Source: Pirellulales bacterium
GTDB lineage: Bacteria > Planctomycetota > Planctomycetia > Pirellulales > JAEUIK01
NCBI GenBank assembly: GCA_019745975.1
Contig: JAIESQ010000079.1
Coordinates: forward strand, 1-64,000
Direction of reading: 5' to 3'
Length of the DNA stretch: 64,000 nt
Positions 6,290 through 11,650 of the stretch are shown one piece after another; the first letter of the stretch is position 1, and every line of letters starts with the position of its first letter. The translations under genes and the position numbers were made by a program. Below the pieces are notes generated by a model, which saw nothing but the letters and a program-made list of their open reading frames with translations, did not search any database and was not told where the DNA came from.

Positions 6290-7333
6290 ATGGCCAAGCA
6301 GGCGAACTCGTACCGTTTCAGTTTCGGTCCCTGGAACATCTCGACCGGCGCCGATCCGTTTGGCCCCCCGGTGCGCAAGGAAGTTCCCTTCGCCAAGAAG
6401 ATTCGCGAGTATCGCGAGCTTGGCTTCACGCACGTGCAGTTGCACGACGACGACGTCGTGCCCGCCGACTGGGACAGCGTGCAGACGTCCAAGGGCGTGG
6501 CCAAAGTCAAAAAAATGCTCGATGGCGAAGGGCTGACCGGCGAGTTCATCGCGCCGCGGCTGTGGGAAGACCCGCGCACCATCGACGGCGGCTACACGGC
6601 CAACAAGGCGGCCGACCGCACGTACGCTCGCGAGCGGACGCGCCGCGCGGTCGATATCGCGCGGATGATGGACATCGACCTGATGGTGCTCTGGCCGGCG
6701 CGCGAAGGGACCTACATCCGCGAGGCCAAGGATGCGAGCCAGGCGGTGGGGCGGCTCGTCGAGGCGATCGACGATATTTTGAAGACCGACGCGAAGATTC
6801 GGGTTGTCGGCGAGATGAAGCCGAACGAGCCGATGGATCAGGCGTACTGCCCCACGGTCGGCCATTTCATGGGGCTGGTGTATCGCACGCTCGATCCCAA
6901 GCGCGTCGGCGTATTGATCGAGAGCGCGCATAGCATCCTGGCCGGTCTTGATCCGGCCGATGATATGGCCTACGCCCTCTGGCACGGCAAGCTGTGGGGC
7001 GTGCACCTCAACGATCAGAACGGCCTGAAGTACGACCAGGATAAAACGTTCGGCTCGGTCGACTTGCGACGGGCGTTCAACCAGGTGTGGGTATTGGAGC
7101 GGGCGAAGTACTACGACATCGGCGTGGTTGGCCTCGACATCAAGGCGATGCGCACCACAAAGCAGGCCGACGCCACCAAGCACCTGGCCAATAGCCTGGC
7201 GATGTTCAATCACCTGCTGGAGCTAGTGCGATCGGTCGACGCGGGGAAGGTCGAAGAGCTCCGCGCGGCCCGTGACTACGAAGGGCTCGAGCGGTATATC
7301 CTGGAGCATATCCTGGGGCGGAAGGGACGGTAG
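6290..7333 (+). CDS. Xylose isomerase-like TIM-barrel sugar isomerase
   Basis: A 347-residue protein, shorter than the 385-440 of true XylA, clearly aligned by eye with class I (Streptomyces-type) xylose isomerase. Equivalents of catalytic and metal residues are W15, H52 (HDDD), W135, E175 and K177 (EMKPNEP), E211 and H214 (ESAH), D249 and D251 (KYDQD) and D283. Three active-site positions differ: the metal-1 ligand Asp245 is His239 here, the Phe94 position is W92, and Thr90 is Ala. The fold and metal chemistry are therefore supported, while D-xylose as substrate is doubtful. It heads an operon with a HAD phosphatase and a PfkB kinase. Start ATG 6290. Confidence 0.85.
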   Translation: MAKQANSYRFSFGPWNISTGADPFGPPVRKEVPFAKKIREYRELGFTHVQLHDDDVVPADWDSVQTSKGVAKVKKMLDGEGLTGEFIAPRLWEDPRTIDGGYTANKAADRTYARERTRRAVDIARMMDIDLMVLWPAREGTYIREAKDASQAVGRLVEAIDDILKTDAKIRVVGEMKPNEPMDQAYCPTVGHFMGLVYRTLDPKRVGVLIESAHSILAGLDPADDMAYALWHGKLWGVHLNDQNGLKYDQDKTFGSVDLRRAFNQVWVLERAKYYDIGVVGLDIKAMRTTKQADATKHLANSLAMFNHLLELVRSVDAGKVEELRAARDYEGLERYILEHILGRKGR

Positions 7334-7369
7334 TCACTGCTGGCACCCAAGGCAATTGACGCGAATGCA

Positions 7370-8203
7370 ATGACCACGACCAGTTCTTCGTCTGAGATCG
7401 AGATCCTGCGCTCCGACTTTCGCCGGGGGGATTTTCGCGCCGTGCTCTTCGACTTCGACGGCACGCTATCGCTCATCCGCCGCAATTGGCCGCAAGTAAT
7501 GATCCCGATGATGGTCGACGTGCTGGCCGAGACCGGCACGAGCGAATCGCGCGATGAGTTGAACGACAAAGTCGAAGAGTTCGTCATGCGGCTCAACGGC
7601 CGGCAGACGATTTACCAGATGATCCAATTGTCCGACGAAGTGAAAGCCCGTGGTGGCACTCCACGCGATCCGCTTGAGTACAAGAGCCGCTACCACGATC
7701 TGTTGTCGGCGCAGATTCACCATCGCGTGACCGGGCTGGCAAATCGCACCGTCACCGCCGAGTCGCTCACCGTGCCGGGGAGCCATCAACTGCTCGAACG
7801 GCTGCGCTCCATGGGGCTCGAGCTGTATCTAGCTTCGGGGACCGACGTCAAGTATGTGCGCGAAGAAGCCACCGCGCTCGAAGTGGCCCAATATTTCGGC
7901 CCACACATCTACGGCGCGCTCGACGACTACAAGAACTTCTCCAAGAAAATGATCATCGACCAAATCATCCACGACGCGGGCGTAGCCGGGCACCAACTTA
8001 TTGGTTTCGGCGATGGATTTGTCGAGATTCAGGAAGTGCGCCAGGCCGGCGGCGTGGCGATCGGCGTGGCTAGCGAGGAGGAACGCCGCCAAGGGATCAA
8101 CGAGTGGAAGCGCAACCGGCTGATTCCGGCCGGGGCCGACATCATCATCGGCGATTATCGCTGCCAGGATGAATTGTTCCGCGTGCTGGGGCTGGCCTCG
8201 TGA
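7370..8203 (+). CDS. HAD-superfamily phosphatase (phosphoglycolate phosphatase-like)
   Basis: A 277-residue HAD hydrolase. Motif I is LFDFDGTLSL with nucleophile Asp28 and general acid Asp30. Motif II is LYLASGT, the lysine of motif III lies in FSKKMI, and motif IV is GFGDGFVEI, with Glu in place of the second Asp. A helical C1-type cap sits between motifs I and II (about residues 45-130). It starts 36 bases after the isomerase stop and overlaps the next gene by GTGA. By context it should dephosphorylate a sugar phosphate made by the neighbouring isomerase and kinase. A phosphoglycolate role is possible but nothing in the context supports it. Confidence 0.85.
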   Translation: MTTTSSSSEIEILRSDFRRGDFRAVLFDFDGTLSLIRRNWPQVMIPMMVDVLAETGTSESRDELNDKVEEFVMRLNGRQTIYQMIQLSDEVKARGGTPRDPLEYKSRYHDLLSAQIHHRVTGLANRTVTAESLTVPGSHQLLERLRSMGLELYLASGTDVKYVREEATALEVAQYFGPHIYGALDDYKNFSKKMIIDQIIHDAGVAGHQLIGFGDGFVEIQEVRQAGGVAIGVASEEERRQGINEWKRNRLIPAGADIIIGDYRCQDELFRVLGLAS

Positions 8204-9282
8204 TCTCGCTTGAGCGGCTCAAGGCGACGCTGGCGCGGTTCCCCGGCCTCGCAATCGGACTGGTCGGCGATCTGTTTCTCGATCGCTATCTCGACATCGA
8301 TCCCGACCTCCATGAATTGTCGATCGAGACCGGGCTCGAGGCCTACCAGGTCACGCGGATCCGCAATAACCCCGGCGCCCTGGGGACGATCATCAACAAC
8401 CTCGCGGCGCTGGGCGTTGGGCGGTTGGTGCCGGTCACAGTGATCGGCGACGACGGCCAGGCGTACGACCTGCTGCAGGCGCTCAAACAGCTACCGGTCG
8501 ACGCGACGCACATTCTGCAAGACCCGCGCCGCAAGACGCCAACCTACACCAAGCCGATGCGCCGTGAAGTCGACGGCCAGTGGCGCGAGCTCAATCGCAT
8601 CGACTTGCGCAATCGCGAGGCGCTGGCCGCCGACACCGAGCGCGAGTTGTTGGCGCGCGTCTCAACGGCCCTGGACACGACCGACGGGTTGATCGTGCTC
8701 GACCAGGTGAACGAAGAGAGCTGGGGCGTGGTGACGCCGGCGGTGCGCGAGCGGCTGACCGAACTGTGTGCGGCACGGCCCGACAAATTGGTGTTCATCG
8801 ACAGCCGTGCGCACATCCACCGCTTTCGCACCGGGGTGCTCAAGCCAAACCGCGCCGAATGCGTCCGTGCGGCGGCCGATTGGAATGCGACGAGCCAGCA
8901 ACAGTCCGCGGTCGCCGTTCGGGCCGCGGAAATGAACTCCGATTTGGCCGCCGTCCAGCGCGCCGCAGAGACGCTGGCCGCGCGCACCGGCCGCCCCTTG
9001 TTCTGCACACTGGCCGAGCAAGGAATTCTGGTGGTCGAATCCGGACGACAGACGGTGCGCGTGCCGGCGCTCGTGCCCAGCGGGCCGATCGACCCGGTCG
9101 GGGCCGGCGACAGCGTGACGGCCGGTGTCGTTGCGTCGCTCATGTCGGGCGCAACGCCGGTCGAGGCGGCGACGGTTGGCAATCTCGTGGCGTCGATCAC
9201 GATTCGACAGTTAGGCACGACAGGTACGGCAAGTCCGGCCGAAGTCTTGGCCGCTTGGCCGCGCCTGAGAAACGATCCTTAG
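8200..9282 (+). CDS. PfkB/ribokinase-family carbohydrate kinase, RfaE1-like
   Basis: A 360-residue PfkB-family kinase starting at GTG 8200, which overlaps the HAD stop codon. The N-terminus (LVGDLFLDRYLDID) resembles the heptose-7-phosphate kinase domain of RfaE/HldE. The glycine-rich segment GALGTIINNLAALG follows, and the C-terminal DPVGAGDSVTAG holds the catalytic base Asp304 and the anion hole. There is no C-terminal nucleotidyltransferase domain, unlike bifunctional HldE. With the isomerase and phosphatase upstream it completes an isomerase-phosphatase-kinase set. The sugar substrate cannot be read from sequence. Confidence 0.87.
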   Translation: MISLERLKATLARFPGLAIGLVGDLFLDRYLDIDPDLHELSIETGLEAYQVTRIRNNPGALGTIINNLAALGVGRLVPVTVIGDDGQAYDLLQALKQLPVDATHILQDPRRKTPTYTKPMRREVDGQWRELNRIDLRNREALAADTERELLARVSTALDTTDGLIVLDQVNEESWGVVTPAVRERLTELCAARPDKLVFIDSRAHIHRFRTGVLKPNRAECVRAAADWNATSQQQSAVAVRAAEMNSDLAAVQRAAETLAARTGRPLFCTLAEQGILVVESGRQTVRVPALVPSGPIDPVGAGDSVTAGVVASLMSGATPVEAATVGNLVASITIRQLGTTGTASPAEVLAAWPRLRNDP

Positions 9283-9337: not shown

Positions 9338-9589
9338 ATGCATCTAACGCTTCACTTGACGCCAGAAATCGAAACACAGCTTAACACGCAAGCTGCCTTA
9401 ACCGGCAAGCCGCCCGAAGAGCTTGTGCTCGAGGCGTTGCGCGATAAGTTCGCCATTGAGCCGATTTCGACGACGCCCCTGGCGACTGACGAATGGCTGC
9501 GGCAATTCGACGCCTGGGTCAGCAATCTGAGCTCGAGAAACCCTCTGGTCGACGACTCTCGCGAGAGCATCTATTCGGATCGCGATTGA
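9338..9589 (+). CDS. Putative VapB-like antitoxin
   Basis: An 83-residue protein. ATG 9338 is chosen because GGGAGGTG lies just upstream (about 9323-9330); the in-frame TTG at 9320 lies before this site. The N-terminus (MHLTLHLTPEIETQLNTQA) has the strand-then-helix pattern of ribbon-helix-helix antitoxins, with an acidic C-terminal tail. Its stop overlaps the PIN-toxin start (TGATG at 9587-9591). This is the usual antitoxin-first order of type II modules. The family is assigned mainly from context. Confidence 0.75.
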   Translation: MHLTLHLTPEIETQLNTQAALTGKPPEELVLEALRDKFAIEPISTTPLATDEWLRQFDAWVSNLSSRNPLVDDSRESIYSDRD

Positions 9590-10038
9590 TGCTCGTTTTG
9601 GTCGACACCAATGTGCTCCTTCGAGTGATCGAACCTCGTCATCCCGACCATGCGTCCGCAGTGACCGCTGTGCGCCGGCTTCGTGAAACGGGCTGCGAGC
9701 TCTGTCTTGTGCCGCAAGTGCACTATGAATTCTGGGTCGTGGCCACGCGTCCTACGACTAACAATGGCCTCGGCATGTCGGCAAGCGAGGCAGAACAAGC
9801 GCTCATTCGCTTCGGCCCACCTTGGTTTCGACTGCTGCGCGATGAACGGGCGGTTTACAACTGCTGGCGCGACCTGGTCACCCGCTACAATATTCAGGGC
9901 AAACAAGCGCACGATGCTCGCTTGGTTGCCGCAATGATTCGTCATGGTGTTGCGAGCTTGATAACCTTCAATATCACTGATTTCGCGCGGTACGACGGAA
10001 TAAGCAGCGTCGACCCACGAACCGCGTTTGCGCCATGA
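9589..10038 (+). CDS. vapC: PIN-domain ribonuclease toxin (VapC-like)
   Basis: A 149-residue PIN-domain protein. The four expected acidic residues are in place: D6 in LVDTNVLLR, a Glu in HYEFWVVATR, an Asp in QAHDARLVAAM and a final Asp in NITDFARY. Start ATG 9589 overlaps the antitoxin stop, implying translational coupling. VapC toxins cleave tRNA or rRNA with Mg2+; the target here is unknown. All catalytic residues are present, so the toxin looks intact. Confidence 0.87.
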   Translation: MLVLVDTNVLLRVIEPRHPDHASAVTAVRRLRETGCELCLVPQVHYEFWVVATRPTTNNGLGMSASEAEQALIRFGPPWFRLLRDERAVYNCWRDLVTRYNIQGKQAHDARLVAAMIRHGVASLITFNITDFARYDGISSVDPRTAFAP

Positions 10039-10223: not shown

Positions 10224-10547
10224 ATGCCACTCTTCGAAATCGAGACCGAGTCGCACATCATCATCACTTGGGCAAGCAACGAAGACGCCGCTTCGGCGGT
10301 CGTCGGCGAGGCTTATCCGAGTGAAAAGATCCTGCGGATGACCAAGCGTCCGCGCGACACCTGGGTGATCAGCAAGTCGGCGTTGGGCATTTCGGGTCGG
10401 ATCGACCCCTGCACCACTGCCCGCGATTGTCTGGCGAAAGCCGCCGGCGACAAAGTGCACGCCATCCGCCTGTACATGCACGAGACCGGCTCCGACTTGG
10501 AACGCGCCCGCAAGATCATCGAATCGAACATGGTGATGGGCTGGTAG
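10224..10547 (+). CDS. Small conserved-looking hypothetical protein
   Basis: A 107-residue protein. ATG 10224 has a good ribosome site (AAGGGGA, 9 bases upstream). It is soluble, with no signal peptide or membrane segment. The sequence begins with a strand-rich part (MPLFEIETESHIIITWASN) and ends with a predicted helix (ETGSDLERARKIIESNMVMG). I do not recognise a family. It stands alone between the toxin gene and the TerC gene and has host-like base composition, so it is probably a real core gene. Confidence 0.7.
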   Translation: MPLFEIETESHIIITWASNEDAASAVVGEAYPSEKILRMTKRPRDTWVISKSALGISGRIDPCTTARDCLAKAAGDKVHAIRLYMHETGSDLERARKIIESNMVMGW

Positions 10548-10591
10548 GTTCTTAGCGCCTCGACTCGCGACGATTTCGCCTATCCCGACTC

Positions 10592-11650
10592 TTGGCAAAG
10601 GCCCACGCATTGCCTGCCCAACCGCTCGTTGCAATCCCTCTCTCGTATTGGCTGGCGTTCATCGGTGCGGTGACCGTGCTGCTGGTGCTCGACCTGACGG
10701 TGTTTCACCGCCACGCCAAGGCACCGACGGTGCGACAATCGGCGTTGTGGACCGCCGTGTGGTGCGGCCTGGCCTTGGCATTCAACGTCGGCATTTATTT
10801 CATCTACTACCAGGTTACCGGTGGTAACAGCGCGGTCGCCAAGGACAGCGCGCTCGATTTTCTGTTTGGCTACGTTGTCGAATGGACGTTGTCGATGGAC
10901 AACGTCTTCATGTTCGCCGTGATCTTCGTCTATTTCGCGGTCCCGAATAAGTATCAGTACCGCGTGTTGTTCTGGGGGATCCTGGCCGCAGTCATTATGC
11001 GTTTGATCTTCATTGTGGTAGGTACCGAGTTGATCGAGCGCGCGAACTGGATCCTGGTGCTGTTCGGATTGTTCCTCGTTTACACCGGCATCAAGCTACT
11101 GGCCAAGGGAGAAGAAGAGGAAGACCCCACAAACAACTGGTTCGTGCGATTATGCCGCCGCGCGCTACCAATCGCCTCGGGAGATCACGGCGATCGGTTC
11201 TTTGTGCGGCAGGCCGGCAAGTTGCTGATCACGCCGCTGTTTTTGGTGTTGCTGGTCGTCAACTTCTTCGACGTGGTTTTTGCGCTCGATAGCGTGCCGG
11301 CCATCTTCGGGATCACCAAGGACGCCTTCATCGTGTTCACTTCGAACATCTGTGCCATTCTCGGCCTGCGGGCGCTATATTTCCTGCTTGCCGGGGTAAT
11401 GGATATGTTTCGCTATCTGAACGTTGGCCTTAGTGCGATCTTGATATTCATCGGCCTGAAGATGATTGTGAAAACGACGGAGGAACTGCAGCACGAAGCG
11501 TGGTGGCCGGCGCCGGGACAAGAATGGCTCCACTGGCCACTCCCTGACTGGGCTTCGTTCCTGATCGTGATCGGCTTGCTCGGGGCGGCAATACTCGCCT
11601 CAGTGCTGCACGGTCCTGAAAAGAAAGAGCACGTCGAGCAGAAGGCCTGA
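10592..11650 (+). CDS. TerC/Alx-family integral membrane protein
   Basis: A 352-residue membrane protein with seven to nine hydrophobic segments. Diagnostic TerC motifs are present: VEWTLSMDNVFMFAVIF near residue 95 and NFFDVVFALDSVPAIFG near residue 225, each with conserved acidic residues in the membrane. Alx/TerC proteins are linked to manganese homeostasis, alkaline pH or tellurite response; which applies here is unknown. The start is TTG 10592: a TAG lies in frame just upstream and no ATG or GTG occurs before the first membrane segment (a TTG at 10610 is the alternative). Confidence 0.88.
   Translation: MAKAHALPAQPLVAIPLSYWLAFIGAVTVLLVLDLTVFHRHAKAPTVRQSALWTAVWCGLALAFNVGIYFIYYQVTGGNSAVAKDSALDFLFGYVVEWTLSMDNVFMFAVIFVYFAVPNKYQYRVLFWGILAAVIMRLIFIVVGTELIERANWILVLFGLFLVYTGIKLLAKGEEEEDPTNNWFVRLCRRALPIASGDHGDRFFVRQAGKLLITPLFLVLLVVNFFDVVFALDSVPAIFGITKDAFIVFTSNICAILGLRALYFLLAGVMDMFRYLNVGLSAILIFIGLKMIVKTTEELQHEAWWPAPGQEWLHWPLPDWASFLIVIGLLGAAILASVLHGPEKKEHVEQKA

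Follow-up and report, generated by a model that had tools for sequence, protein, structure and literature searches.

A PfkB kinase and a HAD phosphatase that are encoded side by side in a planctomycete operon are a true recurring module of their own: across the phylum the two are found together, adjacent, or fused into one protein, and in relatives they are linked to heptose genes. On balance, we favor the interpretation that the two enzymes are dedicated to a module with which Planctomycetota activate sugars in the manner of heptose and that the xylose isomerase–like gene preceding them is a lineage-specific operon neighbor.

The trio locus

The window, the whole 64,000-nucleotide stretch of DNA analyzed here, belongs to contig C190 of genome G000 (genomes, contigs of the window genome, and loci are numbered G, C, and L). 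Three + strand ORFs lie there in a tight array. The first (6290–7333) encodes a xylose isomerase–like TIM-barrel protein of 347 residues, hereafter XI, from a widespread XylA-like subfamily; the second (7370–8203) encodes a predicted HAD phosphatase of 277 residues; and the third (8200–9282) encodes a PfkB kinase of 360 residues from a divergent RfaE1-like clade. XI and HAD are separated by 36 bases, and the HAD stop and kinase start overlap by the 4 bases GTGA (8200–8203). Genes were called with a simple caller, with which starts and small genes are approximate. A promoter and terminator scan, which operates near chance level, gave for the + strand of the trio a single terminator-like site, at 6756 in the XI gene. 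The preliminary description of this operon as three coupled genes for a XylA-like enzyme, a HAD phosphatase, and an RfaE1-like kinase agrees with the Pfam and NCBIfam matches, although the named models score below their cut-offs. Its statement that no nucleotidyltransferase is attached also stands, with none found in the trio stretch or among the neighbors tested. A SIS isomerase gene is likewise absent from the window locus, which is not a complete nucleotide-heptose locus.

The trio is flanked by a DUF1501 gene upstream and by a PIN-domain ORF, a DUF6793 gene, and a TerC gene downstream. Directly 3′ of the kinase (9338–10038), an 83-residue ORF with no Pfam match precedes the ORF of the PIN domain (E 3.1e-5), and the two may be a toxin-antitoxin pair. 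The DUF6793 protein and the TerC-family membrane protein are encoded at 10224–11650; in L008, both have relatives upstream of XI, and a DUF6793 relative follows the kinase in L007.

A divergent heptose-type kinase

Membership of the kinase in the PfkB family is clear from its Pfam match (PF00294, E 1.3e-22, 80.9 bits against a cut-off of 25.8) and from a GAGD motif at residues 301–304 (9100–9111). Its best NCBIfam model is rfaE_dom_I (TIGR02198), matched with 128.1 bits and thus below the cut-off of 345, a value that the HldE of the window genome (C191, 288.6 bits) also fails to reach. Residues 41–44 of the kinase (8320–8331) read SIET where HldE kinases have SPEAP or SQEAP, so that the SxEAP motif of the HldE kinases of the phylum is missing. 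SxET is present in all 18 trio and fusion kinases and in none of 10 comparison kinases; SxEAP occurs in 8/8 HldE proteins and in 2/2 second kinases. In the tree, kinases from trios and from fusion proteins group in a single clade of 17 rows with support of 99/96, apart from HldE, and the G029 row falls just outside. The G235 kinase, which is cut by the end of the fetched sequence, was kept out of the tree and counted for SxET. A plain duplicate of HldE is ruled out by the separate clade and the SxET motif.

The structure model of the kinase is of middling quality (pLDDT 69), and its best structural matches are HldA chains. Burkholderia cenocepacia HldA (4e84, 4e8w) comes first and is also among the leading sequence matches, but the identity is only ∼21% and the N-terminal motif is altered in the window kinase.

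Other arrangements of such kinases were seen in the phylum. Two heptose loci (L229:7556-10760 and L230:4519-7844) contain two RfaE1-like kinases, one of them an HldE and the other carrying SREAP, together with a separate nucleotidyltransferase-like gene. At L235:5184-6722, a 512-residue protein has a nucleotidyltransferase domain followed by a PfkB domain, the reverse of the HldE order, and adjoins a gene of the GSU2086 family, which is considered below.

A phosphatase distinct from GmhB

The second protein of the trio belongs to the HAD superfamily, as seen from its match to Pfam Hydrolase (PF00702, E 4.9e-12, 47.1 bits against a cut-off of 26.4) and from an FDFDGT motif, with the DxD at residues 28–30. 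Its predicted structure (pLDDT 88) resembles the phosphatase AlnB and β-phosphoglucomutases in fold. GmhB is of a HAD type other than this capped type. The GmhB model TIGR00213 is not matched by the window protein at E values up to 1, and an assignment as GmhB is ruled out on this ground. In a weak test of the distribution of GmhB, 8 of the 19 genomes with a relative of the window HAD (G167, G152, G216, G079, G117, G133, G148, and G232) were not among the GmhB matches listed at 1e-10; overall, 65 of 246 genomes were without a match.

Kinase and HAD are paired across the phylum

These counts refer to a sample of 246 Planctomycetota genomes. HAD was found in 19 of them and close relatives of XI in 14; for the kinase, a threshold of 1e-20 gave 28 genomes and one of 1e-28 gave 18. 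The cut-offs of 1e-28 for the kinase and 1e-100 for XI were chosen after the match lists had been viewed. HAD is present in 14 of the 18 genomes with a trio-type kinase, compared with 5 of the 228 others (Fisher 1.4e-15). The genome searches first score only some candidates, often 8 of many for the kinase, and the kinase search missed the fusion protein of G220; absences are therefore no proof.

In the window genome and in G167, G152, G097, and G208, kinase and HAD are adjacent, either directly or with a GSU2086-family gene between them. In G079, G004, G017, and G220 they are fused into a single PfkB-HAD protein of 630–682 residues (L212:7520-9445, L213:4757-6649, L214:7377-9269, and L221:7997-10045). 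The pair is thus adjacent or fused in 9 of the 19 HAD genomes. The G232 contig begins within a reading frame that runs on into HAD and is like the linker of the fusion proteins.

Links to heptose genes in relatives

The GSU2086 family (NF052581) accompanies the pair in many of these loci. The member in L007 scores 374 bits (cut-off 250), with no Pfam match above cut-off. Genes of this family lie 3′ of HAD in L007, L009, and L011, with the kinase following in L007 and L009; they are also found in the module locus of G167, G097, G079, and G004, beside the kinase in G061, G130, and G235, and one gene away from it in G145. At 1e-20, relatives occur in 128 of the 246 genomes. Elsewhere, the family sits by HldE, GmhA-like, GmhB-like, and LpxK-like genes, of which HldE and the GmhA-like SIS genes were identified by comparison and the LpxK-like genes named for the look of their sequence. 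No PDB sequence match was found for a GSU2086-family protein, and only weak matches to deoxyhypusine synthase and homospermidine-type proteins were obtained; a literature search returned nothing joining heptose with deoxyhypusine synthase–like proteins. In Geobacter sulfurreducens, GSU2085 is listed as hldE and GSU2087 as gmhA, with GSU2086 between them as a hypothetical protein belonging to a sugar operon; the three genes have similar Tn-seq defects of −3.1 (hldE), −3.2 (GSU2086), and −3.7 (gmhA) (PMC5585712). There, as in the relatives of the window locus, a GSU2086-family protein accompanies a heptose-type kinase, but the window locus itself is without such a gene.

Further genes of this pathway are found with the module. 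A GmhA-like SIS protein is encoded in the module locus of G152, G235, and G079, scoring 103–130 bits against TIGR00441 (cut-off 209). In G232, HAD is followed by rfaE_dom_II (173.5 bits, cut-off 181.5) and then by an ADP-heptose 6-epimerase (385 bits, cut-off 274.6). A GmhA-family match at 1e-3 is present in all 19 HAD genomes, and it is above cut-off in one (G017). As to which nucleotidyltransferase co-occurs, a question raised in the preliminary description, rfaE_dom_II is matched in 16 of the 19 HAD genomes and lies in the HAD locus of G232; no match to it was found in G167 (a single-contig genome with the order HAD-GSU2086-kinase), G061, or G079. Because that domain was not detected in these three genomes, the product of their module may be something other than ADP-heptose. 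Searches of the literature on ADP-heptose in Planctomycetes and on heptose in Rhodopirellula returned only works unrelated by title.

Taken with the pairing and the fusions, these neighbors support the earlier notion of heptose-pathway logic independently for the kinase and HAD, yet neither enzyme is canonical, and the support does not extend to the isomerase. Like the ADP-heptose pathway of GmhA, HldE or HldA, GmhB, and HldD, the system has a kinase akin to RfaE1 and a HAD phosphatase, and in relatives its loci have SIS, rfaE_dom_II, and HldD genes. Unlike that pathway, it has in the window a kinase that scores below the cut-off and has SxET in place of SxEAP, a capped HAD, and neither a nucleotidyltransferase nor a SIS gene at the locus. 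We regard it as a novel form of heptose-type activation, with substrates that would be heptose phosphates or similar compounds.

We predict that the kinase would act on a heptose 7-phosphate, or on a closely related sugar phosphate, by phosphorylating C1. The phosphatase would next remove the original phosphate, and the resulting sugar 1-phosphate would pass to a nucleotidyltransferase whose gene lies elsewhere. Isomerization would fall to a GmhA-like SIS enzyme that is also encoded elsewhere, on contig C97 in the window genome. XI would be a lineage-specific operon neighbor drawn from a separate family whose members isomerize free aldoses.

The window genome also encodes two HldE-type proteins (C191 and C176) and a GmhB-like match (C82) in addition to the SIS protein of C97, which has 46% identity to that of G235. 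The isomerase and nucleotidyltransferase that the window locus lacks are thus present in the genome, at C97 and at C191 and C176, respectively. Because these proteins are already there, a second kinase-HAD pair would not be needed for ADP-heptose, a point against our reading; the heptose set of the genome is apparently complete, and the pair is therefore likely an addition rather than a replacement. Copies of the GSU2086-family gene are found on C191, beside HldE, and on C154, the latter grouping with the G097 copy, which there separates HAD from the kinase. The C191 copy (G000:C191:54415-55368; L090:7407-8432) has as neighbors a complete HldE gene and an ORF resembling the C-terminal part of LpxK. 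Genes of this family may encode an unstudied protein of the heptose pathway.

The xylose isomerase–like protein

XI matches Pfam AP_endonuc_2 (E 3.2e-16) and is clearly homologous to XylA (E 2e-49 against 5avh). Its best NCBIfam model is xylA_Arthro (TIGR02631), at 200.6 bits well below the cut-off of 447. Relatives with 54–85% identity were collected from 80 loci, assigned by their sequence records to Planctomycetota, Omnitrophota, Chloroflexi, Armatimonadota, and other phyla. The alignment holds 81 rows of more than 300 residues, the window row included, and is read with the residue roles of XylA. Like class I XylA, all 81 members have His54, Asp57, Glu181, Lys183, Glu217, His220, Asp255, Asp257, and Asp287. 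Unlike it, all 81 have His in place of the metal ligand Asp245 (His239 of XI, codon 7004–7006), lack Trp20, and have Trp for Phe94, such that the full set of XylA catalytic and metal residues is not present. A His metal ligand is also found in rhamnose isomerase and tagatose epimerase. Because the other catalytic residues are kept and these three positions are changed throughout, XI looks, from its sequence, like an active enzyme that belongs to a subfamily of its own. With xylose isomerase as the best named match of XI, the locus could be taken for a standard xylose operon whose xylulose kinase is unusual. We regard this as very improbable: the three changes and the score far under the XylA cut-off speak against it, the kinase is RfaE1-like, and a HAD protein would be unexpected there.

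The preliminary description had placed XI at the center, with the three activities of heptose synthesis assembled around a different isomerase fold. The trio may have those three activities, but the proposal that XI supplies the isomerase step, with the kinase and HAD acting on its product in an undescribed sugar-phosphate route, is in our estimate unlikely. In its favor, HAD adjoins XI in the relative loci L007–L011. The XI-HAD order is thus kept in six loci, the window included, across HAD identities of 63–73% and kinase identities of 52–66%, and L010 keeps it even though no kinase is beside HAD, and this conservation speaks for XI being more than a chance neighbor. XI and HAD also co-occur, HAD being present in 7 of 14 XI genomes versus 12 of 232 others (p 1.3e-5) and, by family, in 6/9 versus 8/78 (p 4e-4), statistics that ignore phylogeny and genome size and rest on thresholds chosen after the list was viewed. 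A lineage effect is likely part of this co-occurrence, since the GmhA-like SIS protein of the G235 type overlaps XI similarly (7 of 14 XI genomes among its best 16).

Against a central role, only 5 of the 80 XI loci have HAD alongside and only 2 (L007 and L009) have the kinase nearby; HAD is absent from the other 75. These include L016, which is 81% identical over its part and has another gene in the 2.9 kb downstream; among the 73 loci with at least 1 kb of downstream sequence, 69 are without HAD. Close relatives of XI were detected in 7 of the 19 HAD genomes and not in the other 12; among the 7, XI and HAD are adjacent in the window genome only and lie on separate contigs in the other six. 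The GmhA-family match in every HAD genome, with the SIS gene inside three module loci, offers a different isomerase. The view of a route built around the XI fold is therefore not upheld, and, as to whether the trio co-occurs across Planctomycetes, the kinase and HAD do so, with XI not a fixed partner. XI as an obligate member of the module is ruled out by its missing HAD partners, by L016, and by the 12 HAD genomes in which XI was undetected. A literature search found nothing joining xylose isomerase, heptose, and HldE. XI is most likely a lineage-specific neighbor and may have an accessory role in the window lineage. We tentatively suggest, as possible though short of probable, an undescribed heptose-like activated-sugar pathway of Planctomycetota that comprises the SxET kinase clade, sometimes fused to a capped HAD replacing GmhB, a GSU2086-family protein as a further enzyme, and a His-ligand XI recruited as an extra isomerase in the window lineage.

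Outside the module, the neighbors of the XI family look catabolic. Chloroflexi loci have a class II aldolase–like protein and a PfkB kinase, L061, L073, and L085 have a DeoC/LacD-type aldolase, and G061 has a galactarate/altronate dehydratase–like gene. In addition, where G079 and G220 encode the kinase-HAD fusion, the adjoining gene of the run encodes an AGE-family epimerase, from a class of free-sugar enzymes. Such neighbors would fit salvage or catabolism of free sugars, in which HAD would strip a phosphate, XI would interconvert the free aldose and ketose, and the PfkB kinase would rephosphorylate the sugar. However, the Chloroflexi kinases fall outside the trio clade, and the GSU2086, SIS, nucleotidyltransferase, and HldD neighbors indicate biosynthesis, so we consider this explanation doubtful.

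In many bacteria, heptoses are building blocks of the outer surface. A kinase-HAD module that extends across a phylum, with a changed substrate motif in the kinase and a conserved GSU2086-family protein as companion, marks a gap in heptose biochemistry. It also advises caution when a pathway is deduced from a single operon, as XI, the protein around which this one seemed to be built, shows the weakest conservation among the three.
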